A stretch of DNA of 40,811 nt from Polyangiaceae bacterium. Its GTDB lineage: Bacteria > Myxococcota_A > Polyangia > Polyangiales > Polyangiaceae. The translations under genes and the position numbers were made by a program. The stretch lies in the NCBI GenBank assembly GCA_029261965.1, contig JAJDAH010000066.1, forward strand, positions 1 to 40,811, in the 5' to 3' direction. The notes beneath the pieces are model-generated. The model saw only the letters and a program-made list of their open reading frames with translations, had not been told where the DNA came from and did not search any database. Below are positions 423 to 40,811 of this stretch, piece after piece (position 1 is the first letter of the stretch; each line of letters starts with the position of its first letter).

Positions 423-2702
423 CTACATCAGCACGCGCAAGCCAGTCTCTGAAGTCGTCACCCTTATGGTTCGATCCGCGAGCTTCGGTTGCCGCGAAAG
501 CTCGATGGCGATGGGAGTGATGACGTGCTCTTCGATGGCGCGTTTCAGGGGGCGAGCGCCATACTCGGGATCGTAGCCGAGCTCCGCGAGACGACTCTTG
601 GCGGCGTCGTCCACCTCGACCGTCAGGTTACGGCGCCGCAGCCCCTCGCGCTCACGGACCTTCTCCAGCTCGAGCTCGACGATGAGGCGGAGGGCATCGG
701 CCGAAATCTCGAGAAATGGAACGACGTCGTCGATGCGGTTGAAAAACTCGGGGCGAAAATGCTGCTTCACTGCCCGAAGCGATTGCTCGGGATCGCGGCT
801 TTGTTGTCCGAAGCCAGCGCGAGAAGCCCCTGACCCCAGGTTGCTCGTCATGACGATGAGCGCCATGCGAAAGTCCACGAGCCGACCTCCGAGAGAGGTC
901 ATCCTGCCCTCGCCGAGAACTCCGAGGAGCAAATCGAAGACCGCCGGGTGAGCCTTTTCGATTTCGTCGAGCAGAACGAGGCTCAGAGGGTTTCGCGAAA
1001 CTCGTTGAGCCAAGCTCGAGGATCCCTTTTCGTCGGCGAGCAGCCGTCCGGTCGAGTCAGCGAGCATGTACTCGCTCATGTCGAGCCGGATGAGGCGCTC
1101 GTCGCTCCCGAACATGAACCGAGCGAGCTGTTTTGCGAGCTCAGTCTTGCCGACTCCCGTCGGCCCGACGAAGAGCAGGCTACCGATCGGCTTTTCGGGA
1201 TCGTTCACGCCCGCCTTGAAGCGCGCCAGGACCTGCGCGGCGAGTCGGCAGGCCGAGTCTTGTCCGACCACTCCGGCTTGCAGCTCCACGCTCAGTGAAT
1301 CAGCGTCGCCGGTTTCGTCGTCGCTCAGCAGCTTTTCGGGCAACCCCGAATAACGTGAAAACAAGTGATCGGCGTCTCTGCCGCTGACCGTCCTGGTGCG
1401 CGCCGGCGTGGCTCTGCTCGTCGGGGCTTGTTTCTCGAGCCAGTCGAGGAACAGAAGCGCCTTGCCCGGAAATGCGACGTCCTTGCGAAAAAACGCCAGG
1501 TATCGAAGCAGCCGTCTCGTGGCATCGGGATGGAGGCGTGAGGGCGAGTGGTGTCGCTCTTGATACTCCGTGACGAGCGCCGCGGTCGCCTCCGGCGTCG
1601 TGGGTTCGAGCCGCACGACTCGGAAGCAGGCAAGGAGCGCCGGCGCGACGACCTGCAGACGTTGATATTCTTCGAACGTCGACTCCGCGATGAGTGCAAT
1701 CTCCCCGTTCCGAACGGCCGGCAGCATCAGATCCGCGATGGACGAAGCTCCGGATCTCTCTCGAGCCAACGCGCTCAGCCGGTCGACGTAGAGGAAGTGG
1801 CCTTCGTCGCGCAGCTCTTCGACGACGTTGAGGCAGCGCTCCTCCCACATGCCGAGGTAGGTCATGCCCGCCATGATGCGTTCGGCCGATGTCGCCCAAA
1901 CCTGCACGCCATCGAACGCCCCGCCTTCGCTGGTCCTGGCGGCCCGTCGGGCGAGCTCTCGCACCCACTCGGTTTTTCCGACCCCGGAAGGACCGACGAG
2001 CAGGACCGAGGTTTTTCGCTCCGGGGTCAGCACGGCGTCGTACGAGGCAGAGTCGGTGGTGCCGAAGTGCCGACCGAGCTTGCCCGCACGCGAGAGCACG
2101 CCCCAGTTTTCGGCGATTTGTCGAAGATGCGGGAACTCGTCGTACAGCTCGTCTTCCGCATGGAGCTTCCGCTTGCGATGGGCTTTCGGTGTCCACGTCG
2201 AGACGTACTCCCGAGTCGCTTCGCGGAACCCGAAGAGTGAGCCGCTGCTCTCCCCGGTCAGATCCGTCCCGATCGCCTGCCGCAGCACTTCCGGAGCCAT
2301 GCCGAGCTCCTCGAGTACGAACGTCCAGCCGAAGCGAGGCACCATCACCCGATAGCCTGCGGGGTCACCCCGTTTGCCGTCGGAGACCGCTGCCCACGCG
2401 TAGGTCACTTCGATCGGGATCTTGTTCTTTCCTATGATCCGACGTTTGCCCACGGTCGTCTGTGGTCGCACTTCGACGGTGACGTTCGCCGTGCGAACGT
2501 CAGCGAGCCAGAGGAATGACTCGAACGCTTCGAGGTCGTCGCCGATCCGTGTCGATAGCTCGGCATCGAGCTGCTCCAGAACGCTTTCTTCACTCGGACC
2601 GGTGGCTGAAATTCGAAGCCGCGTGCTCGTTCGAGGCATGAGCAACCCGGTCAAGAGGCCGCCGGCATCTCGGATGAAATAAACGCGGCACGAGCGCTTC
2701 AT
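423..2702 (-). CDS. ClpB-like double-AAA+ ATPase, third gene of the trio (no C-terminal extension)
   Basis: 759 residues. The ATG at 2702 overlaps the stop of the upstream ATPase gene (ATGA), which fixes the start; the frame stays open further upstream but reads as low-complexity Arg-rich shadow. Layout: unique N-terminal alpha/beta region (1-170); AAA-1 with Walker A GPSGVGKT (237-244), pore-loop motif GMTYLGMWEER (Tyr282) and Walker-B-like FLYVDR (303-308), with Arg where the catalytic Glu belongs; AAA-2 with GPTGVGKT (513-520), LLDEIEK (577-583), arginine finger Arg656 and sensor-2 GAR (715-717). The AAA-1 arginine-finger pair is absent (APALLACF). The AAA-2 GYVG pore loop is missing near 553-565, as are the Clp-N domain, coiled-coil middle domain and any ClpP-docking IGF/IGL loop. 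It ends just after AAA-2. Probably a cytoplasmic remodelling ATPase or a subunit of a mixed ring with the two upstream paralogues; the substrate is unknown. Confidence 0.88.
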   Translation of the reverse strand: MKRSCRVYFIRDAGGLLTGLLMPRTSTRLRISATGPSEESVLEQLDAELSTRIGDDLEAFESFLWLADVRTANVTVEVRPQTTVGKRRIIGKNKIPIEVTYAWAAVSDGKRGDPAGYRVMVPRFGWTFVLEELGMAPEVLRQAIGTDLTGESSGSLFGFREATREYVSTWTPKAHRKRKLHAEDELYDEFPHLRQIAENWGVLSRAGKLGRHFGTTDSASYDAVLTPERKTSVLLVGPSGVGKTEWVRELARRAARTSEGGAFDGVQVWATSAERIMAGMTYLGMWEERCLNVVEELRDEGHFLYVDRLSALARERSGASSIADLMLPAVRNGEIALIAESTFEEYQRLQVVAPALLACFRVVRLEPTTPEATAALVTEYQERHHSPSRLHPDATRRLLRYLAFFRKDVAFPGKALLFLDWLEKQAPTSRATPARTRTVSGRDADHLFSRYSGLPEKLLSDDETGDADSLSVELQAGVVGQDSACRLAAQVLARFKAGVNDPEKPIGSLLFVGPTGVGKTELAKQLARFMFGSDERLIRLDMSEYMLADSTGRLLADEKGSSSLAQRVSRNPLSLVLLDEIEKAHPAVFDLLLGVLGEGRMTSLGGRLVDFRMALIVMTSNLGSGASRAGFGQQSRDPEQSLRAVKQHFRPEFFNRIDDVVPFLEISADALRLIVELELEKVREREGLRRRNLTVEVDDAAKSRLAELGYDPEYGARPLKRAIEEHVITPIAIELSRQPKLADRTIRVTTSETGLRVLM

Positions 2703-5700
2703 GGCGTGGACCTGCGAGTCGTCGATCGGCCGGCATCGAGCAACCAGAAATCGCGAAGCAGCTCCCCGAGGTCGCGCACGCGACGACTTGCCGCGTGCGC
2801 GAGTCGGTAGTCCTCGATGGACGCCGTGGCGGGCCCACCCTCGGCCGGGTCGAAAATGATGGTCCGCACGATCGGTAGGAGCGCGGCCGGATTCGGGGGC
2901 AGGGATCCGGAGGCTTCGAGTGCTCGTTCGAACGCCCGACGCGCGCGTTTGTGTTCTTCCAGGATACCTCTCGGGTCGTGGCTGCCTGCGAGTACTCGCA
3001 CCCGAACGATTTCCGGCCCGACGCCGACTGCGCGGCGAACGTGGCAACCATGTTCCCCCGCCAAGAGCGCCGTGACGCCGGGGCCTAGCAGTCGCAAAGC
3101 GAGCTGCCGGGGGCGCGCTTCCAAGAGATCGGAGAGCTCACCCATCGTGCTCGCGGTTTCCTGCCGTCCGTCGCCGAGGGTTGCGGCGGCGCCGTCGAGT
3201 CGCCCTCGGCTCGAGGCGTAGGCACGTGCCAACCACTCGAGTAGTCCTGGGTTGCCGCGCGAGAAGCGTCGGGACTCGTGCTGGGCGGCAAGCCGGAGAA
3301 GCTCGAGTGAGCAGACGTGTTGGTCCTGCTGCTCGACTCGATCGAGCATGCCGGCGAGCAGGCGAACTTCGGCGAGATCGCCGAGCAGGCGCTGCTGCTT
3401 TTTGCCGGGACGCACTCGCTCGGCCTCGCCAACGAGACGGCTCGGACGTTGCTCGCTTCGGTCGCGACGTTTCCCGAAGCTGGCGCCGAGAGTCGAATAG
3501 TCGTCGGCGGCTACCGCCTCGCCCGCTCGGCGCTTTCGCTGGCGTTCGACGGCTTGTAGCCGAGCGTCGCGTGTCGCGTGCGATTCGAGTCGTCGCCGAA
3601 GACGAGAAATGTGAGCGACGACGGCGTCGAGCGAGAACAATCGGTCGGCAGCCCCCTCGTCGCCGAGCCGGAACCCGGCGAGCTCGCGACTCAGCTGAGC
3701 CCCGAGGTCCTCGAATCGGCCGTCGGTTTCTATCTGCCGGAGCTCTTCGAGCGCGTCGGGAACGAACCGTTCGAGCTCGAAAGGGTCCGCCGAGAGAAGC
3801 GGCTCCACGTCGCCCGCGCCGGACACCGTCTCGGCTTCGGCGAGTGCCTCGGCGTAGACGCCGACGCCGTCCTCTCGCTGATGTAGCCACAAGAGCTTCA
3901 TCGCCGCCGCACCGTCGCTGACCAGGGTGCGCGCCAAGACATCGCCCACATTCCGGTCGATGTGTCGCTTGACGGCCCGCGCCCCGTACTCGTGGCTGTA
4001 CCCATCCTCGACGACACGGTCGACGACGGCGTCGGTCACCCGCACGAAGACGTTGCGCTCGGTGAGCCCAGGCCTCGCTGCCAACTTGGCGAGCTCCTTG
4101 CGGGCGATGTCGCGCGCCGTCGATCTCTCGAGCGGTCGGAAAGCGACGACGCGATCGATTCGATTGAAGAGCTCCGGTGCGAAAAATTCGCGCACCGCCT
4201 TGCTCACGTCTTGACTGACGCTGTCGGGATCCGAAGCGAAGCCGCGGATTCTACGCTCGCCGCTTCCGAGGTTGCTCGTCATGATGATGACGGTGTGGGT
4301 GAAGTCGGCCACGGTGCCGGTTGCGTCGGTCAGGCGCGCGTCGTCGAACAGCTGCAGCATGAGATTGAGAACCGAGGGGTGCGCTTTTTCGATTTCGTCG
4401 AACAAAAGCACGCTGAAAGGTTGCGCGCGCACGGCGCGGGTCAGCTTTCCTTCGGGGTTGGCTCGATCGCCGATGAGCTGGCCCGGAGCGTCCAGGGTAT
4501 TGAGCTCTCCCATGTCGAAGCGCACGAGGCGGTTCGACTGCCCGTACAGATATTCCGCGATGCACTTGGCGAGCTCGGTTTTTCCGGTACCGGTGGGGCC
4601 GGTGAACAGGAAAACACCGTAAGGGCGCCCCGGCTCGGAGGTCTTGGCTCTGACGCCCAAAACGAGGTCCGCGGCGGCGTCGAGCGCGGTCGGTTGACCC
4701 ATGATCTGTTGGCCGAGCTCGCGAACTAGAGTGCTCGGCTCGAGCGGGTGCGCGGCCACGAGCAGTGTCTCGGGTAGCCCCGTCTGGCGAGAGAAGTACC
4801 CAATGACGTCGCGAGGCTCGATCGCGGGCTCGTCGTCTTCGTCGTCGTTGCGTCGCTCGCCAGCGCGCTCCCTGGCTAGCGCGTCGAGGGGGCCAAGAGC
4901 CTTGCCTGGAAACGCCGATCCTGTTGTCAGCGTGCTCGCGGCGCTCGCGATCGAACGAAAGCAACGAGAGTCGAACGCGACGTCGAGCTCGCGTTCGAGC
5001 CGACGGCTACCGTGCAGCATCACGCCGAGGGTTTGAGGTTCCGTCGTCGGCTCGACGCGGACCCGTGCGAAGGTGGCGGCGAAACCCGGCGCGTCGTGTT
5101 CGAGCACCGAGAGCTGTTCCGGCGTGCATTCGCCGATGAGCAGGAGGTCCCGGCGGGCCAAGGGCCCCCGGAAAAAATCCGCCAGCGAGCGTTCGCTGAC
5201 GGTCGTTCGCCCGATGCTGCCCCAAGCGTGCACGTCGTCCGCCCACAGGACGAGCTTCTTCTTTCGCGCTCGTTGGAGCAGTGCCATGCACCGGGCTTCC
5301 CATTGGCCCACGTAGGACATGCCGGCGATGATGTGGCGACCACGCAGGCTGAGCACGTTGTGTACTCGGTCGAGGTTTTGATGCGCCGCAAAGTCGTCAG
5401 AGTGGAGCAGATCGCTGACCGCTCGAGCGATGACCGTGGACTTGCCGCTGCCCGGCGGGCCCACGACGAGAACCGGCGCCTTCAGGGTGCCGCACAACAA
5501 CTGCTGTAGCCGGCTCCGGTAGGGTTCACGCGCCAAGCCGGTCGGCAGCTTGCCTTCCGCCGCCCGCGCGGTCTGGTTGACCGCGACGCGCAACAGCTCG
5601 TCCAGGCGTGCCGAGTGCCCGGCGGTCGTCTGCTCCACATCGGGTTTGTCGTTCAAGAGGTCGAGCAAGCTCGGCGGATCGACGTCGAAACGAATGGTGA

Positions 5701-6169
5701 CGAGCTTGTCGCTCGGCTCGGCTTTTAGAAAATCGAGGTCCTCTTCGGGGTCGAGCGTCCGGCCGTAGGCCCGCCGCACCTGTTCGGAGAGCGGGGTGTC
5801 CTCGCGCACCTCGAACCAGCGGGTGGGGTGTAGCGGGTGATAACCCACCTCGAGCAGCCGTTCGGCTCCAGCAGCGCGCCGCTCGAGCACGACGGGGAAT
5901 ACGCCAGCGGTCCGCCGCTTTTCGGGGCCATCGCGTAACGTGAGCTCGACGTGCACGCGCTCTAGACGCCGCCCAGGGGGCACGACGAGTCGGCAGAGGT
6001 GCTTTCGATCGAGTTTTTTCACCTCTCGGCGAATTCGCTCGATGGTTCGCAAACGGGCCTTTCCGGGATCTCTCGACCCGGTTGCCCAGCCGAACAGACC
6101 AGGCACGACCGGGGCGAGGCGCCAAGTGGACGACCGCTTGCATTGGTAGAGGCTGACGGCGATTTGCAT
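2699..6169 (-). CDS. ClpB-like double-AAA+ ATPase with release-factor-like C-terminal extension, second gene of the trio
   Basis: 1156 residues. The ATG at 6169 lies 3 bases after the stop of the first ATPase gene, with only a weak Shine-Dalgarno, so translational coupling is likely. Residues 1-220 are a unique N-terminal region. AAA-1 has GPPGSGKS (237-244), GMSYVGQWEAR with pore Tyr286, and VLWADDVH where the Walker-B pair is Asp-Asp instead of Asp-Glu; its arginine fingers are replaced (APGFAATF). AAA-2 is canonical: GPTGTGKT (524-531), FDEIEK (590-595), arginine finger Arg670 and sensor-2 GAR (729-731). The GYVG pore loop is replaced by a stretch around GDRANPEG (567-574). Residues 800-1143 form an extension whose order of features resembles RF2: N-terminal helices, a PCRF-like strand with GEHGCHV (1038-1044), then an RF-like end beginning VRTIIFDP (1101-1108). 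GGQ is absent. The extension reading is inference from pattern. The stop overlaps the next ATPase start. Confidence 0.88.
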   Translation of the reverse strand: MQIAVSLYQCKRSSTWRLAPVVPGLFGWATGSRDPGKARLRTIERIRREVKKLDRKHLCRLVVPPGRRLERVHVELTLRDGPEKRRTAGVFPVVLERRAAGAERLLEVGYHPLHPTRWFEVREDTPLSEQVRRAYGRTLDPEEDLDFLKAEPSDKLVTIRFDVDPPSLLDLLNDKPDVEQTTAGHSARLDELLRVAVNQTARAAEGKLPTGLAREPYRSRLQQLLCGTLKAPVLVVGPPGSGKSTVIARAVSDLLHSDDFAAHQNLDRVHNVLSLRGRHIIAGMSYVGQWEARCMALLQRARKKKLVLWADDVHAWGSIGRTTVSERSLADFFRGPLARRDLLLIGECTPEQLSVLEHDAPGFAATFARVRVEPTTEPQTLGVMLHGSRRLERELDVAFDSRCFRSIASAASTLTTGSAFPGKALGPLDALARERAGERRNDDEDDEPAIEPRDVIGYFSRQTGLPETLLVAAHPLEPSTLVRELGQQIMGQPTALDAAADLVLGVRAKTSEPGRPYGVFLFTGPTGTGKTELAKCIAEYLYGQSNRLVRFDMGELNTLDAPGQLIGDRANPEGKLTRAVRAQPFSVLLFDEIEKAHPSVLNLMLQLFDDARLTDATGTVADFTHTVIIMTSNLGSGERRIRGFASDPDSVSQDVSKAVREFFAPELFNRIDRVVAFRPLERSTARDIARKELAKLAARPGLTERNVFVRVTDAVVDRVVEDGYSHEYGARAVKRHIDRNVGDVLARTLVSDGAAAMKLLWLHQREDGVGVYAEALAEAETVSGAGDVEPLLSADPFELERFVPDALEELRQIETDGRFEDLGAQLSRELAGFRLGDEGAADRLFSLDAVVAHISRLRRRLESHATRDARLQAVERQRKRRAGEAVAADDYSTLGASFGKRRDRSEQRPSRLVGEAERVRPGKKQQRLLGDLAEVRLLAGMLDRVEQQDQHVCSLELLRLAAQHESRRFSRGNPGLLEWLARAYASSRGRLDGAAATLGDGRQETASTMGELSDLLEARPRQLALRLLGPGVTALLAGEHGCHVRRAVGVGPEIVRVRVLAGSHDPRGILEEHKRARRAFERALEASGSLPPNPAALLPIVRTIIFDPAEGGPATASIEDYRLAHAASRRVRDLGELLRDFWLLDAGRSTTRRSTP

Positions 6170-6172
6170 GGC

Positions 6173-9100
6173 TCAGCCCGGCGGCAAGTACGGATCGCCG
6201 CCCTCGGCCACGTCAACCACCCAATCGAACACCAACTCCTCCCAGCGCCGAAACAGATCTCCGGCTACGAGGCCGTCGAGGAACAGGTCGGCGTCGTCGG
6301 TGCGCGCCTTTCCCGGATCCTCGCCGAACGAAACGCGTAGCGGTTGACGCACCCCGACTTCGCGGTCGAACGTCGGCGCCAGCGCGGGCGTTTTCCAGTC
6401 TTCCTCGTCGATCTGCCAGCGCGGGCGTGCGAGACGAACCCACAGCTCTTCGTGATCTTGCTCGGAGTGGTAGCGATATCTTCCGACGGCGAAGGAAAGC
6501 AACGCGCCGGCGGCGGGCCCCTTGACGCGCACCATGAGGCTGGAAAACGGCCGCTCGGAATTGGGGCCCCCATGACGCTCGACGAACTCGTTGGGGGTGA
6601 GCGGCGGACCCCACCGTCGCTTTTTCATCGTGGGCCAAACCTGCTCGGGTTTTCGTTCGCCGCGATCCACGTGGACGAGGCCTTGCCAGCCCCGAGCGTC
6701 GAGCGAGGCCAGAAGGGCGTCGGTCCAAGAGCGGAGTGCTCCGCCTTCGTCGAGGTCGTGGGCGATGAGAGCGATCTCGTTTTCTTGGCTCGTTGCCAAG
6801 AGAGCGGCGACGAGATGTCGACGAAACCGCTGGAACGCGGCGTCGGCTTCCGTCTCGAAAAACTTGGGTTCGTCGTTGTCGTAGACCGATCCGACAACTA
6901 GCTCCTCGATGGATTCGAGCTCCTGGTGAGCCTCGTCGAGCGGCCTCAGGATTTCCTGCAGGCTCCCGTGCTCGATCGAGAGGCGGCCGAGCAGTGTGTC
7001 CATTCCGCTCGTCTGGCGTCGCGCTCGACGGCGGGAGCCGCGATTGAGTTCGACCGCGATTTCTCCCAAACGTTCGCGAAGTGCGGTGATAGGTGGGAGC
7101 CTCGACCACCGCATCGTCTGCCGACGTTTGGCGCTGATGGCGACGACTCCGGTCAAGTCTGTGAGCTCGCGTCGACGCTTGCGGCGCATGACACGAAAGC
7201 TGAGGCCGCCGCGCTCGAGTCGGAGGAGCTCTTCCGAGAGCGCTGGCTCGCCGGATTCTTGGCAGAGCTCCTTGTTTTCGAGCTCTCGGCTCGCGCTGTG
7301 CACCGCGATCAGCTGACCGGACGCTGACGCGCCGAGCTGGGCGACGAGGTGCGAGATGGGCGCCGTCAGCGCCTGTTCCAGGTGGCGCCGCAGTCCGCGC
7401 GCTCCATAGTCGGGCGAAAACCCGTCATCGGAGAGTGCGGCGATCGCGTCGTCGGCGACCCAGACGCGAATGCCTTGCTCTTCGAAGCCGACCCGGCGAG
7501 CAATCCGGTCGGTGGACAGTTTGGCTACATCGTGAATCTGCTCGCGGGTCAAGCTCGAGAAACAGACGATTGTGTCGAGTCGGTTGAGGAACTCCGGGCG
7601 GAAGTGCTCTCGAACCTGCTGCATGTAGTAGTTGGCATCGTCGACTTCCGCGCCGCCGAAGCCCAATACGGAGCCGCGGTGTTGCGCCCCCAGATTGCTC
7701 GTCATCACGATGATGGAGTTCTTGAAGTACGCTACGCGCCCTTCGGCGTCGCTCAGCCGGCCCTCGCCACACACTTGCAGCAGTAGGTCGAACACGGCGG
7801 GGCTCGCCTTCTCGATCTCGTCCAGCAACAGCACGCTGAACGGCTGCTCGCGGATCCGACGGGTGAGCACGCCATCGGCGTGGTCGGTTCCCCGGATGAG
7901 GCGATCGGCGGCGTACGCGTCCGAGTACTCGCTCATGTCGAAGCGCGCGAGGCGTTCGGCAGAACCGAACAAGAACCGCGCGAGCGCCTTGGCGAGCTCG
8001 GTCTTACCGACACCGGTCGGACCGACGAACAGGAACGTGCTGAGCGGCTTCGCGCCGGGCTGCAGCCCCGCTTTGACCGCGCACAGGGTCTCGGCGACGC
8101 GACGAACGGCGCTCTCCTGTCCGACCAGTCCTCGGCGGAATGTCTCCTCCACACGTTCGAGCAACAGGCTGCGTTCATCCCGCAGTAGGAACTCCGGCAC
8201 GCCGGTCTTCACGCTGACGTGGCGCAGCACGTCGTCCGTGCGGAGCTCGAGCGGCCCGTCGGTCTGGCCCTCCGCTCGGCGAGCGGCAACGAGCTCTTCG
8301 ACGAGTGCTACGGCCTTGCCAGGGAGAGACCGGTAGGGCTCGTAGCGCTCGACGAGGTCCACCACCAGCGGAATGGCCGCTGGCTCGAGCGCCGGGTGCT
8401 CTCGGCGTCTCGCGGCTTGCCCGCGGGCTTCGAGCACATCGATGGTTTGGGCGCGGTCGAGCGCCTCGGCACTGATGCGGTGCAAATGGCTGAAGAATCC
8501 GACGTGCCGATGTTGAAGGCGGTCGTACTGCTCCGGATCGAGCTCGCCGACGATGCGCACACGGCCGCGTTCGATGTAGCGCTGCATGGCTCCGGCGATG
8601 TCCTCGTACCCGCCGGACTGGCCAGCAAAGAGGTCGTCGAACGCCTCGAAGTACAGCACCACGTCGAGAAGCTCGACGGCTTTCATGACGTCGTCGACTC
8701 GCTGTTCGAGTTGGCCGACGAATGACTGCCCGGCCACGAGCTCGGCCCCGCTGGTGCGGTGAACCTCGCGCCCGAGCCCTCGGGACGCCGCTCGCATGAG
8801 CGCGGACTTGCCGCCGCCGGCGGGACCGACGAGCGCTACGCTCGAGCGAGACGGAGACTCTAGCAGCGAACGCAATCCCGCGATGTCGCGGTGGAGGACC
8901 TCGTCGTCCCCGGGTTTCAAGAGTTGTGCGACGGAGGCGAGGAGCTTCCTCGCGGCGCGGAGCTTCTGCCGCTCGGCCCTCGCCCGGCGAGTGCTTTCTC
9001 GCTCCTTGCCCGCCTCGCGGTCGACTTCTACCCCGAGGCGCTCGAGCTCGAACGACGTCGTGGGCAGCAGGTCGAAGTAGTCGGCGCCGCCGATGTCACT

Positions 9101-9526
9101 CGCAGCGGCGAGCCGGACGATTTCCTTCGAGAGCAGCGCGTCCGGATCTGCAGCATGCTCTTCGGGCACGTAGCAAACCTGGTTGAGCACGGGGATCAAC
9201 ATCCACCGCGCCCCCCGCGCCCCTTCGAGCTCGACGACCGTGATGGAGATCGGCGTCCTCACCCGCTCGTCGCGAGCGGCGTCCGCTCGTGGGAGCATGA
9301 CCGAAACTTCGCGTGTGCTCGCGGGCTCCGGCACGACGAATTCGAGCACGTCGTCGGGGTCGATTCGTGAGAAGTGCTCGCTCAGAAACAATCGCAGCTC
9401 GTCGAGCGCTTGCTCTGGCTCGTCGCCGTAGCTGATCAGGGCCGGGTCCACCGCGGGGAACGCCGAGAAGAACCCGCCCGAATGCTCCCGAACGACGACG
9501 AGCGGCCGCACCACGACTGACGACAT
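6173..9526 (-). CDS. ClpB-like double-AAA+ ATPase with release-factor-like C-terminal extension, first gene of the trio
   Basis: 1117 residues. The ATG at 9526 has a good Shine-Dalgarno (GAGGGAG, about 4 bases upstream). Residues 1-65 resemble a HicB-like fold: a strand with GGFFSAFP, then YGDEPEQALDELR leading into a helix. AAA-1 has GPAGGGKS (234-241), GQSFVGQLEQR (pore Phe269) and a strongly altered Walker B (LYFEAFDD, 291-298), with no arginine-finger pair near HVGFFSHLH. AAA-2 is intact: GPTGVGKT (502-509), LLDEIEK (567-573), arginine finger Arg648 and sensor-2 GAR (708-710). Its pore loop is replaced by RGTDHADG (545-552). Residues 805-1100 resemble RF2: a helical N-part, then DLDEGGALRSWTDALL (924-939) in the place of the PCRF motif GAGGTEAQDWA, VKGPAAGALL (1001-1010), and an RF-like C-terminal piece (1060-1098); no GGQ is present. 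Heads the operon and diverges from the TPR gene. Confidence 0.88.
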   Translation of the reverse strand: MSSVVVRPLVVVREHSGGFFSAFPAVDPALISYGDEPEQALDELRLFLSEHFSRIDPDDVLEFVVPEPASTREVSVMLPRADAARDERVRTPISITVVELEGARGARWMLIPVLNQVCYVPEEHAADPDALLSKEIVRLAAASDIGGADYFDLLPTTSFELERLGVEVDREAGKERESTRRARAERQKLRAARKLLASVAQLLKPGDDEVLHRDIAGLRSLLESPSRSSVALVGPAGGGKSALMRAASRGLGREVHRTSGAELVAGQSFVGQLEQRVDDVMKAVELLDVVLYFEAFDDLFAGQSGGYEDIAGAMQRYIERGRVRIVGELDPEQYDRLQHRHVGFFSHLHRISAEALDRAQTIDVLEARGQAARRREHPALEPAAIPLVVDLVERYEPYRSLPGKAVALVEELVAARRAEGQTDGPLELRTDDVLRHVSVKTGVPEFLLRDERSLLLERVEETFRRGLVGQESAVRRVAETLCAVKAGLQPGAKPLSTFLFVGPTGVGKTELAKALARFLFGSAERLARFDMSEYSDAYAADRLIRGTDHADGVLTRRIREQPFSVLLLDEIEKASPAVFDLLLQVCGEGRLSDAEGRVAYFKNSIIVMTSNLGAQHRGSVLGFGGAEVDDANYYMQQVREHFRPEFLNRLDTIVCFSSLTREQIHDVAKLSTDRIARRVGFEEQGIRVWVADDAIAALSDDGFSPDYGARGLRRHLEQALTAPISHLVAQLGASASGQLIAVHSASRELENKELCQESGEPALSEELLRLERGGLSFRVMRRKRRRELTDLTGVVAISAKRRQTMRWSRLPPITALRERLGEIAVELNRGSRRRARRQTSGMDTLLGRLSIEHGSLQEILRPLDEAHQELESIEELVVGSVYDNDEPKFFETEADAAFQRFRRHLVAALLATSQENEIALIAHDLDEGGALRSWTDALLASLDARGWQGLVHVDRGERKPEQVWPTMKKRRWGPPLTPNEFVERHGGPNSERPFSSLMVRVKGPAAGALLSFAVGRYRYHSEQDHEELWVRLARPRWQIDEEDWKTPALAPTFDREVGVRQPLRVSFGEDPGKARTDDADLFLDGLVAGDLFRRWEELVFDWVVDVAEGGDPYLPPG

Positions 9527-39425: not shown

Positions 39426-40811
39426 TCAGTCTCTTGTGGCTTGCGTTTCGGTGGCGAATAGTTGCCGCAGGTTCCAGGCCTGAAGAAACAACTTGCGCTC
39501 GGCCTTCTTCAGCGAATCCCGCCCCATGCCGATGAAAAATGCGGGTAGAGCGGCGAAAGAAAGCGCGACCCAGGCAAACGCGATGATCGTGCCCTGTTCC
39601 GGGAGGTTGAGCGCGCGAGGGTGGAGGATGAGCTGCCCGGCTTCGAAGGTCCACGCCGGCGGATACAGCGCGAGGTATTCGAGCCCGAAGGGGAGGAGCA
39701 CACCGGTAGTGACGAATGCGGCGTACACTCGGCGCTCGCTCTTCGTCGTCCCGGTGGCGTGCAAAGCGACTGCGGCGGAAGCCAAGGTCGGGACGATCAC
39801 GAATGGTCCCGCCCAGGCGCTGGCGACGACGAGCAACGCGGCGGTCAGCAGACCAAGGATGCTCGTCTCCAAGATGCGGCGTTCGTAGCTTTGCCCCATC
39901 CGATACGCCTGCGCGATGCACAGCAGGCACAGCACGGTGATTATCGAAATTGCCCACCAGTCGCGAATCCCCACGGCTAGGGCGAAGGGCCAGCCGGCGA
40001 GAAGCGTGGAGTACCCGAACGCTCCGAGACGGGCGTTCTTGCGGAAAACGCGTCTCTCCTCCGCTCGGTATTCGGCCGCGGCCTCCGGTGGCATCTCCCC
40101 ACCTTCGACGACGAGCTCCACCAGTAGCTTCTGCGCCTCGTGGCTCTCCGGGTCGAGCGCCATGGCTCTGACGACTTCGCGCATCGTTTCGACTTGACCA
40201 CCCTCTCGAGAATCATCCTGCTGCAGACGACGGCGCACGGTCTTGACGTGCTCGGCGGCGAGCGAGCGGCGAAGATCTCGGTCTCGATCGCCGGCCAGGT
40301 AGCTCTCGACGGCCTCGGCGAGCTCGCTAGCGGACTGGAACCGTTTGGCGGGATCGGCTGCGGTCGCTCGAACGCAGATTTCATCGAGCTCTGGCGGCAC
40401 GTCGGAGGCCACGTCGGACGGTCGCCGCTCGGGGCATTCTGCGGCGAGCGCCAGGATTTCCATCGAGTTCTGTCCGTCGCGGAACCGATCCCGAGTCAGT
40501 ATCTCGTAGAGTGTCGCGCCGAGCGAAAACACGTCGGCCCGCGCATCGACCTCGGACTGTCGCCCTCGGACCTGCTCGGGTGGCATGTAGACGGCCGTGC
40601 CTACGTACTCACCTTGAGCGGTCAACATCACGTCAGATCCCGGATCGATTTGAGACTGACCCAGGGCGTCCGCTCCGAGGGGCGCGCCGTCATCGGCGGT
40701 GGTATCCACCGGAGGGGCGTCGAGCACTTTGGCGATGCCCCAGTCGAGCAAATGAACTTCGCCGAAGCGACCGAGCATGATGTTTGCCGGTTTGATGTCG
40801 CGGTGAATCAC
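39426..40811 (-). CDS. Ser/Thr protein kinase with C-terminal multi-pass membrane domain (5' end outside window)
   Basis: The fragment enters the window at the catalytic loop, so the N-lobe and ATP loop lie beyond the edge. In the fragment: HRDIKPAN (3-10, with catalytic Asp5, Lys7 and Asn10), DWG at 23-25 in place of DFG, the activation end VGTAVYMPPEQ (70-80) and ADVFSLGATLYE (92-103). A Glu/Arg-rich linker with helical repeats follows (about 170-245), then about six transmembrane helices (from GAFGYSTLLAGWPFALAVG to WVALSFAALPAFFIG) and a short cytoplasmic end. DWG is common in this kinase subfamily and does not by itself mean inactivity. An acidic 30-residue insert lies in the activation loop. 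Hanks-type kinase signalling at the membrane; partner unknown. Confidence 0.93.
   Translation of the reverse strand: MIHRDIKPANIMLGRFGEVHLLDWGIAKVLDAPPVDTTADDGAPLGADALGQSQIDPGSDVMLTAQGEYVGTAVYMPPEQVRGRQSEVDARADVFSLGATLYEILTRDRFRDGQNSMEILALAAECPERRPSDVASDVPPELDEICVRATAADPAKRFQSASELAEAVESYLAGDRDRDLRRSLAAEHVKTVRRRLQQDDSREGGQVETMREVVRAMALDPESHEAQKLLVELVVEGGEMPPEAAAEYRAEERRVFRKNARLGAFGYSTLLAGWPFALAVGIRDWWAISIITVLCLLCIAQAYRMGQSYERRILETSILGLLTAALLVVASAWAGPFVIVPTLASAAVALHATGTTKSERRVYAAFVTTGVLLPFGLEYLALYPPAWTFEAGQLILHPRALNLPEQGTIIAFAWVALSFAALPAFFIGMGRDSLKKAERKLFLQAWNLRQLFATETQATRD

Follow-up and report, generated by a model that had tools for sequence, protein, structure and literature searches.

What might a bacterium do with three diverged Clp-type ATPases encoded one directly behind the other, two of them ending in what was once a release factor? 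The question is raised by contig JAJDAH010000066.1 (C443 here) of a Polyangiaceae bacterium, a contig which in its entire length of 40,811 bases is the window analysed, the genome amounting to 9.6 Mb in 480 contigs. A sequence-only reading had pointed to the three genes, here called A, B and C, and had favoured subunits of one machine over three general disaggregases. We find that, as families, the C-terminal tails of A and B descend from release factor 2 (RF2), an ancestry that is well supported, and that the three genes are a conserved set. The origin of the tails, the degenerate first AAA+ module (AAA-1 or D1) and the lost pore loop of the second (AAA-2 or D2) are additions to the earlier account and, given release-factor modules together with an apparently inactive D1, the function is likely to differ from the one then envisaged. 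Our proposal is that A, B and C form a hetero-oligomeric, ribosome-directed remodelling ATPase which docks by means of its pseudo-release factors, a proposal that we would neither bet on nor bet against.

All three genes are on the minus strand, head to tail as the sequence-only reading had it. A (6173..9526, 1117 amino acids) is separated by 3 bases from B (2699..6169, 1156 amino acids), and C (423..2702, 759 amino acids) starts on the terminal ATGA of B. Each has the two AAA+ modules expected of it (Pfam AAA, AAA_2 and ClpB_D2-small), with an N-terminal domain in front, a degenerate AAA-1 and an active-looking AAA-2. In A these occupy 8936..9526 (a family-specific domain devoid of a meaningful Pfam match), 8150..8917 and 7313..8149; in B they are at 5591..6169, 4727..5560 and 3893..4726, and in C at 2121..2702, 1293..2090 and 426..1292. 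The claim that one architecture is common to all three fails, since A and B continue into C-terminal extensions of 379 and 397 amino acids (6176..7312 and 2702..3892) and C ends after D2. A Polyangiaceae relative known from a metagenome (L041) has the same genes, with C at 56% identity.

Where did the extensions come from? Among relatives they comprise 310-426 residues in A and 257-423 in B (an over-long B frame of 898 aside); C proteins run on after D2 for less than 25 residues in 38 of 39 cases, and for 95 in the other. When a profile of 20 A tails was compared with the PDB, RF2 chains were matched at 2e-9. Further illumination comes from a sister type recovered with the D1 profile, in which a lone gene encodes a Clp-type double AAA+ protein fused to a full-length pseudo-RF2. 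Six such proteins were assembled (L150, L151, L153, L154, L155 and L088), three of them from the phylum of certain Planctomycetaceae relatives and one each from the class of a gammaproteobacterial relative, the phylum of isolate SZAS-1 (which we take to be a melainabacterium) and the window's own order. The profile of their six tails matches RF2 from end to end at 2.8e-41 and Pfam PCRF is found in all six; the five whole frames scanned each have both AAA_2 and PCRF above the Pfam cut-offs, and in four of these five HEAT repeats serve as the N-terminal domain. This lone pseudo-RF2 fusion merits study in its own right.

The B tails are the more elusive. A profile of 18 sequences did not find a release factor, and with 39 sequences (one of the 40 B proteins, L080, being excluded for its over-long frame) RF1 and RF2 appeared at 0.015 and 0.02 amid coiled-coil and other noise, the top match of which was slightly better. 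As the B tail is ambiguous by sequence alone, its case was decided by profile-profile and fold comparison. Against the profile of lone-type tails the A tails gave 6e-13 and the B tails 1.1e-12, with 0.27 for a control profile of C-type N-terminal domains. An AlphaFold model of the window's B tail (397 amino acids, 7 sequences, mean predicted local distance difference test score (pLDDT) 68, predicted template modelling score (pTM) 0.67) retrieved RF1, RF2 or mitochondrial RF1 at every one of Foldseek ranks 1-19, the best at 4.9e-6, and release factors in all of rows 1-44 of VIA-align with Z up to 12.7. In the window the A tail is accordingly RF2-derived by way of its orthologues' profiles, with a PCRF-type core at 6464-6541, and the B tail has the release-factor fold in the predicted model; GGQ is absent from both.

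GGQ is the catalytic motif of RF2, and SPF its tripeptide for stop-codon recognition. The letters GGQ occur in 4 of the 81 A and B tails, none of them, judged by eye, in a release-factor context; inspection by eye likewise found no SPF in the consensus of the A or the B tails. In the lone-type alignment there is no GGQ at the aligned place and, again by eye, no SPF in the aligned stretch. Lacking both, the tails of A and B could dock but could neither read stop codons nor cut peptidyl-tRNA. Nor is the trio the cell's termination factor, since two ordinary full-length PCRF proteins of 364 amino acids each, as expected for RF1 and RF2, are encoded elsewhere in the genome. As a separate observation, three A proteins (L083, L085 and L091) end in stretches resembling the C-terminal domain of L7/L12 (Pfam Ribosomal_L12, 9.2e-6 to 1.7e-4), and a similar stretch was seen, by eye only, within gene B of L042. 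These A segments are short and two of the three are under the cut-off; such as they are, they would fit a link to translation.

What of the motor itself? The sites were compared in 120 relatives (41 A, 40 B and 39 C) from 59 loci, aligned with five ordinary Clp proteins; a 752-residue B-like frame (L128), a B gene in two frames (L042), an A gene in two frames (L078) and a partial B (L087) were set aside, and the group entered as X 7 in the motif table includes two ordinary Clp proteins (L148_8531 and L152) that are absent from the lone-type alignment, A8. In D1 the Walker A lysine persists (40/41 A, 37/40 B, 39/39 C), but the catalytic glutamate of Walker B is found in none of the 120, against 4 of the 5 ordinary proteins, and the RRF arginine-finger motif in 6 of the 120, against 4 of 5. 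In the window the place of the lost glutamate reads VVLYFEAFDDL in A (8630-8662), whose D1 Walker A is present, LVLWADDVHAW in B (5222-5254) and HFLYVDRLSAL in C (1767-1799). D2 is in a very different state, with Walker A, the DE pair of Walker B and sensor 1 in all 120, and the NR arginine-finger motif and the GAR of sensor 2 in 113 each; A of the window has Walker A, DEIEKA, sensor 1, arginine finger and GAR, and the active-site motifs are likewise present in B and C.

D2 has nonetheless forfeited its grip. At the position of the GYVG pore loop 118 of the 120 are shorter than the five ordinary Clp proteins by at least 4 residues (in the window the loop is deleted at 7853-7918 in A, 4430-4495 in B and 999-1061 in C), and a glycine-tyrosine pair is found there in 3, plus one protein with GF at the edge of the stretch. 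One tier of the ring thus looks ATP-dead, and the other alive yet bereft of its gripping loop; as enzymes, D1 would be inactive and D2 active. The D1 pore loop has met opposite fates. It is aromatic in all 39 C proteins (in the window IMAGMTYLGMWEER, 1836-1877), in 24 of the 40 B proteins (Y or F, with H in 5 more) and in 5 of the 41 A proteins, a split to be expected if A, B and C work together. As far as motifs can tell, a division of labour among the paralogues shows itself in these loops.

Could they instead be three separate homo-oligomeric Clp unfoldases, co-transcribed by chance and acting in parallel or feeding ClpP? The full D2 active site in all three would suit such enzymes, and lone relatives exist, so that in the sister type a single gene product can suffice. 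The sequence-only reading had moreover denied the proteins a ClpP-docking loop, and as worded that does not stand: at the place of the ClpA/ClpC loop A has LGF (within VLGF, 7658-7669), B has RGF and C has AGF. By a simple pattern counted by hand, [LIVM]G[FLM] occurs there in 66 of the 120 (20/41 A, 22/40 B, 24/39 C), which could mean a protease partner. Yet the tripeptide is not conserved across the family, the D2 GYVG loop is nearly always gone, and A has mostly lost the aromatic D1 loop that C always keeps. We judge the idea of separate unfoldases improbable, and copy number, to which we now turn, tells further against it.

The counts come from five searched groups with the D1 profile A1 at a threshold of 1e-50 to 1e-52, a 377-genome phylum search at a loose threshold being excluded. 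In the window's class the family is in 25 of 116 genomes, with exactly three matches in 21 and 1, 2, 2 and 4 in the others; in 19 of the 21 a single contig holds all three within some 8 kb. The order of a Saprospiraceae relative has it in 6 of 198 genomes, every one with exactly three, unlinked: in one genome they share a contig of 8.4 Mb at distances of 100 kb or more, and otherwise they are on different contigs. In the gammaproteobacterial relative's class 4 genomes of 274 are positive; one has a lone copy, and each of the other three has three copies, linked. The phylum of the Planctomycetaceae relatives has 42 of 294, with three copies in 21, four in 1, two in 4 and one in 16; in that of SZAS-1 the 18 positive genomes of 149 divide into eight with three copies and ten with a single one. 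Pooled over the five groups, exactly three are found in 59 of 95 positive genomes.

That the genes are a set of three conserved paralogues is well supported, and the preference for a conserved set over general disaggregases is borne out by exactly three copies in 21/25, 6/6 and 3/4 of the positive genomes in the first three groups, unlinked cases included, which is awkward for separate unfoldases. Homologues of the trio do not occur mostly as lone genes, though the lone sister type does account for at least part of the 16 and 10 genomes with a single match. In the phyla of the Planctomycetaceae relatives and of SZAS-1 all but one each of the single matches are weak, at 209 bits or less. Among those examined, four (L150, L151, L153 and L154) are lone RF2 fusions and one (L152) proved to be an ordinary Clp protein, so the 1e-50 threshold does not wholly exclude ordinary proteins. 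The sole strong single match in the SZAS-1 phylum (L118 in G1242, 270 bits, a frame of 1174 amino acids) has the other two genes absent from its genome and scores similarly with the A and B profiles, out of three profiles tried. At the other extreme, G317 and G288 have six strong D1 matches each (two linked pairs plus two singles), as if holding two full sets. In the Saprospiraceae relative's order an unlinked A gene has an ordinary Clp ATPase gene (L148:8531-11152) in its vicinity, about 1.6 kb away.

How old is the set? Gene order is A-B-C in 27 of the 27 complete linked triads labelled, the window included, and 5 further pairs are A-B or B-C. In the labelling, tail-less proteins were called C by length, and L130's middle gene was taken for B from its position despite a higher score with the A profile; seven of the 39 C proteins (L046, L080, L090, L138, L141, L147 and L156) fit the A profile slightly better than the C profile. 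A tree of 132 D1-D2 sequences, with L152 left out, unites the trio with the lone type's four main proteins in one group apart from ordinary Clp proteins (support 0.994); the trio to the exclusion of the lone type is scarcely supported (0.22). B forms a clade of 40/40 (0.92), C one of 36/39 (0.96) and A a weak one of 38/41 (0.32). Since members from all five groups are present in each of the three main clades, triplication predates the present distribution, which takes in the window's phylum, Planctomycetota, Bacteroidota, Gammaproteobacteria and a fifth group. Within-paralogue distances over 35 complete sets are correlated at r of 0.951, 0.953 and 0.958 (the best of 1000 permutations reached 0.21), as expected for any genes inherited together. 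We infer that an RF2 gene and a ClpA-type ATPase were fused, that catalytic motifs were lost, that the product was triplicated and that C then lost its tail. A second, diverged lineage of sets is also discernible (L080, L090 and L156/L157), its A and C branching outside the main A and C clades; genome G017 holds both lineages, with its main set spread over three contigs.

The ribosomal A site is the one well-known workplace of RF2, and an ATPase that carries an RF2-derived module is most naturally pictured as a machine which finds ribosomes whose A site is accessible and remodels either these or what they bind. On the proposal made at the outset, A, B and C would be three specialised subunits of one ClpA/ClpC-type double-ring, ATP-driven remodeller, probably a mixed A/B/C ring with a ribosomal target and a rescue or remodelling job. 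D2 alone would hydrolyse ATP, with D1 a structural ring that at most binds it. The ring would be brought by the pseudo-release-factor modules of A and B to ribosomes whose A site is empty or blocked, be they stalled, hibernating or damaged, and hydrolysis in D2 would pull on material bound in that site, gripped by the D1 loops of C, until it comes off or apart. As D2 has lost its own gripping loop, a substrate is more likely to be remodelled or split in short strokes than to be threaded through completely. The tails are at the D2 end, which is the exit face of Clp rings, so that it is not obvious how the nascent chain would simply be pulled in on the entry side.

A variant would keep the heteromeric, ribosome-directed set and replace the mixed ring by stacked or sequential homo-rings. 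Sequences do not fix ring stoichiometry, and the paralogues are about equally diverged from one another (mean same-genome distances 2.85-3.06), which would suit it. However, with the D2 arginine finger and sensor 2 each present in 113/120, mixed interfaces are possible, and complementary loss of features would be typical of mixed rings; to us homo-rings seem a distinctly poor prospect.

A more serious contender is that the RF2-derived tails were repurposed to bind something other than a ribosome (RNA, a tRNA-like structure or a protein), in which case the trio would remodel a different complex, e.g. under stress or in conflict with phages. The catalytic and stop-codon motifs are indeed gone, the tails are highly diverged, to the point that B, with its best release-factor E-value of 0.015, is hardly recognisable by sequence, and the family is patchy within every searched group. 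Against it stand the co-linear, full-length RF2 body of the lone type and the fold of the B model, as if shape or docking surface mattered; and a conserved defence neighbour was not found among the loci, PADLOC matches being within the AAA+ modules. We regard a non-ribosomal target as unlikely, if far from fanciful.

Several results weigh against a ribosome-directed set. A release-factor fold does not prove ribosome binding. Pfam recognises PCRF in just 3 of the 20 A tails scanned and in none of 18 B tails. The B-tail model fits well over only about 139 residues (at 3.0 Å), and its whole-chain Foldseek superpositions are poor (template modelling (TM) scores 0.19-0.37), so that the arrangement of its parts is not fixed by the model; the AlphaFold model of the A tail is poor beyond about residue 955, that is, for the last 160 or so residues. 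Taken singly against the lone-type profile the A and B tails of the window, which are among the most diverged of the family, score 1.6 and 1.1 bits, under the 6.8 bits of the best of 800 shuffles, a value surpassed by 28 of 41 A tails and 15 of 39 B tails; their assignment follows from orthologues and the model of B, not from a single-sequence score. To these may be added the possible protease partner, the two groups in which genomes with three copies make up no more than about half of the positives (21/42 and 8/18) and the fact that no conserved neighbour links the set to translation.

That last fact emerged from an all-against-all comparison of flanking frames in 63 loci (26 in an earlier round), with flanks mostly of 3-10 kb, which revealed no partner gene shared across sets. 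It follows that the unit is the three genes only, which argues for a self-sufficient machine. Ser/Thr-kinase-like frames were considered as partners and rejected for their varying places; the window has one such protein kinase domain (Pfam Pkinase) at 39426-40811 on the minus strand, from a family common in such bacteria. Whole-neighbourhood likeness was dismissed as a sign of partnership, being limited to close relatives, and an anti-phage system is likewise not favoured, the PADLOC matches (e.g. DolB and PDC-M37B) being confined to the AAA+ modules and conserved neighbours lacking. Elsewhere in the window seven long frames of 371-925 amino acids between 14548 and 36745 have no Pfam match at 1e-5, and some of them may not be genes.

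To what, then, are these proteins kin? That the paralogues are related and each diverged holds true, mutual identity over D1-D2 being 32-34%; compared with three ordinary Clp proteins of the same genome it is 27-33%, scarcely below. The unusual motifs credited to all three, GMxYxGxWExR and FPGKAL, fit B and C, but A has GQSFVGQLEQR and LPGKAV. 'ClpB-like' is apt in so far as they are diverged double-AAA+ proteins of Clp/Hsp100, but it is a loose term and the layout is nearer to ClpA/ClpC than to ClpB: the NCBIfam ClpA model aligns in one stretch and ClpB in two separate ones, all far under cut-off. The ClpB equivalog scores 300-355 bits for a cut-off of 1232, and its match through the middle domain is not co-linear. 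Matches to the ClpA, ClpB, ClpG, ClpK and ClpV models are all far under their cut-offs, and on that score a type VI ATPase (ClpV) was rejected. ClpC complexes are the best structural matches of the A model by Foldseek; with the whole model only Clp chains are among the 50 matches listed, so that search does not test the A tail.

The lack of a Clp N-terminal domain is upheld, with Pfam Clp_N absent from, and no other meaningful Pfam match in, the 31 N-terminal domains of the family. A profile of 33 C-type domains found 2yzt and 9svk best in the PDB (E-values 0.014 and 0.033), the latter a HicB-family antitoxin and the former, titled merely a putative protein, presumably HicB-like. The C domain of the window weakly resembles that fold, and a HicB-like identity was not adopted, such matches being too weak to name it.

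If the proposal is right, here is a bacterial class of ribosome-remodelling motor so far unknown, an unfoldase welded to a release factor. No description of such a system was found in the open-access literature, the search being of that literature and not of subscription papers or preprints, and to our knowledge no other Clp/Hsp100 family exists as a set of three functionally split paralogues. Even with a non-ribosomal target, an Hsp100 in which one tier is degenerate and the other, D2, is live but lacks its gripping loop would be a useful test case for AAA+ action without pore loops. Torsins and some others are AAA+ proteins without pore loops that remodel without classic threading, and MCM2-7 and Rpt1-6 form hetero-hexameric rings of several fixed paralogues; all are of other subfamilies and without release-factor modules.

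Among nearer kin, the family has in common with ClpA/ClpC the double AAA+ layout spanned in one stretch by the ClpA model, the D2 active site, the GAR of sensor 2 and in part the xGF loop; it differs in a D1 without catalytic glutamate, a D2 without GYVG, the missing Clp N-terminal domain, the release-factor tail, the three-paralogue sets and scores far under the NCBIfam cut-offs. With ClpB/Hsp104 it shares a D2 and D2-small recognised by ClpB models, but the match is in two stretches, D1 is degenerate, the D2 pore loop is gone and an RF2 tail is present. With RF2 (PrfB) the A, B and lone-type tails share a helical domain and a PCRF-type fold; they lack GGQ and SPF and are fused behind an ATPase, with ordinary release-factor genes elsewhere. 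As defining features of both parents fail, the family belongs strictly to neither.

The closest parallel in action comes from eukaryotic quality control, where Vms1, of release-factor type, and the AAA+ protein Cdc48 act jointly on stalled ribosomes (PMC6514570). In the main text of that survey of release factors 'Clp' is absent and 'AAA+' is used three times, each time for CDC48 (PMC6514570). The likeness is an analogy only, since Vms1 is of the aeRF-1 superfamily, the two are separate proteins and Cdc48 is of another AAA+ family (PMC6514570). Might bacteria nevertheless have their own counterpart of that AAA+/release-factor partnership in a single machine, a mixed Hsp100 ring with catalytically dead release-factor arms that reach into the A site of damaged, stalled or hibernating ribosomes and with a single active tier that strips away or splits what sits in it, sprung from an RF2-ClpA fusion that was triplicated before it spread? 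So specific a version we can put forward only tentatively, with the scales tipped somewhat to its disfavour, but should it be correct, bacteria as well as eukaryotes would have yoked a ring ATPase to a release-factor-type protein in the service of ribosomes in distress.

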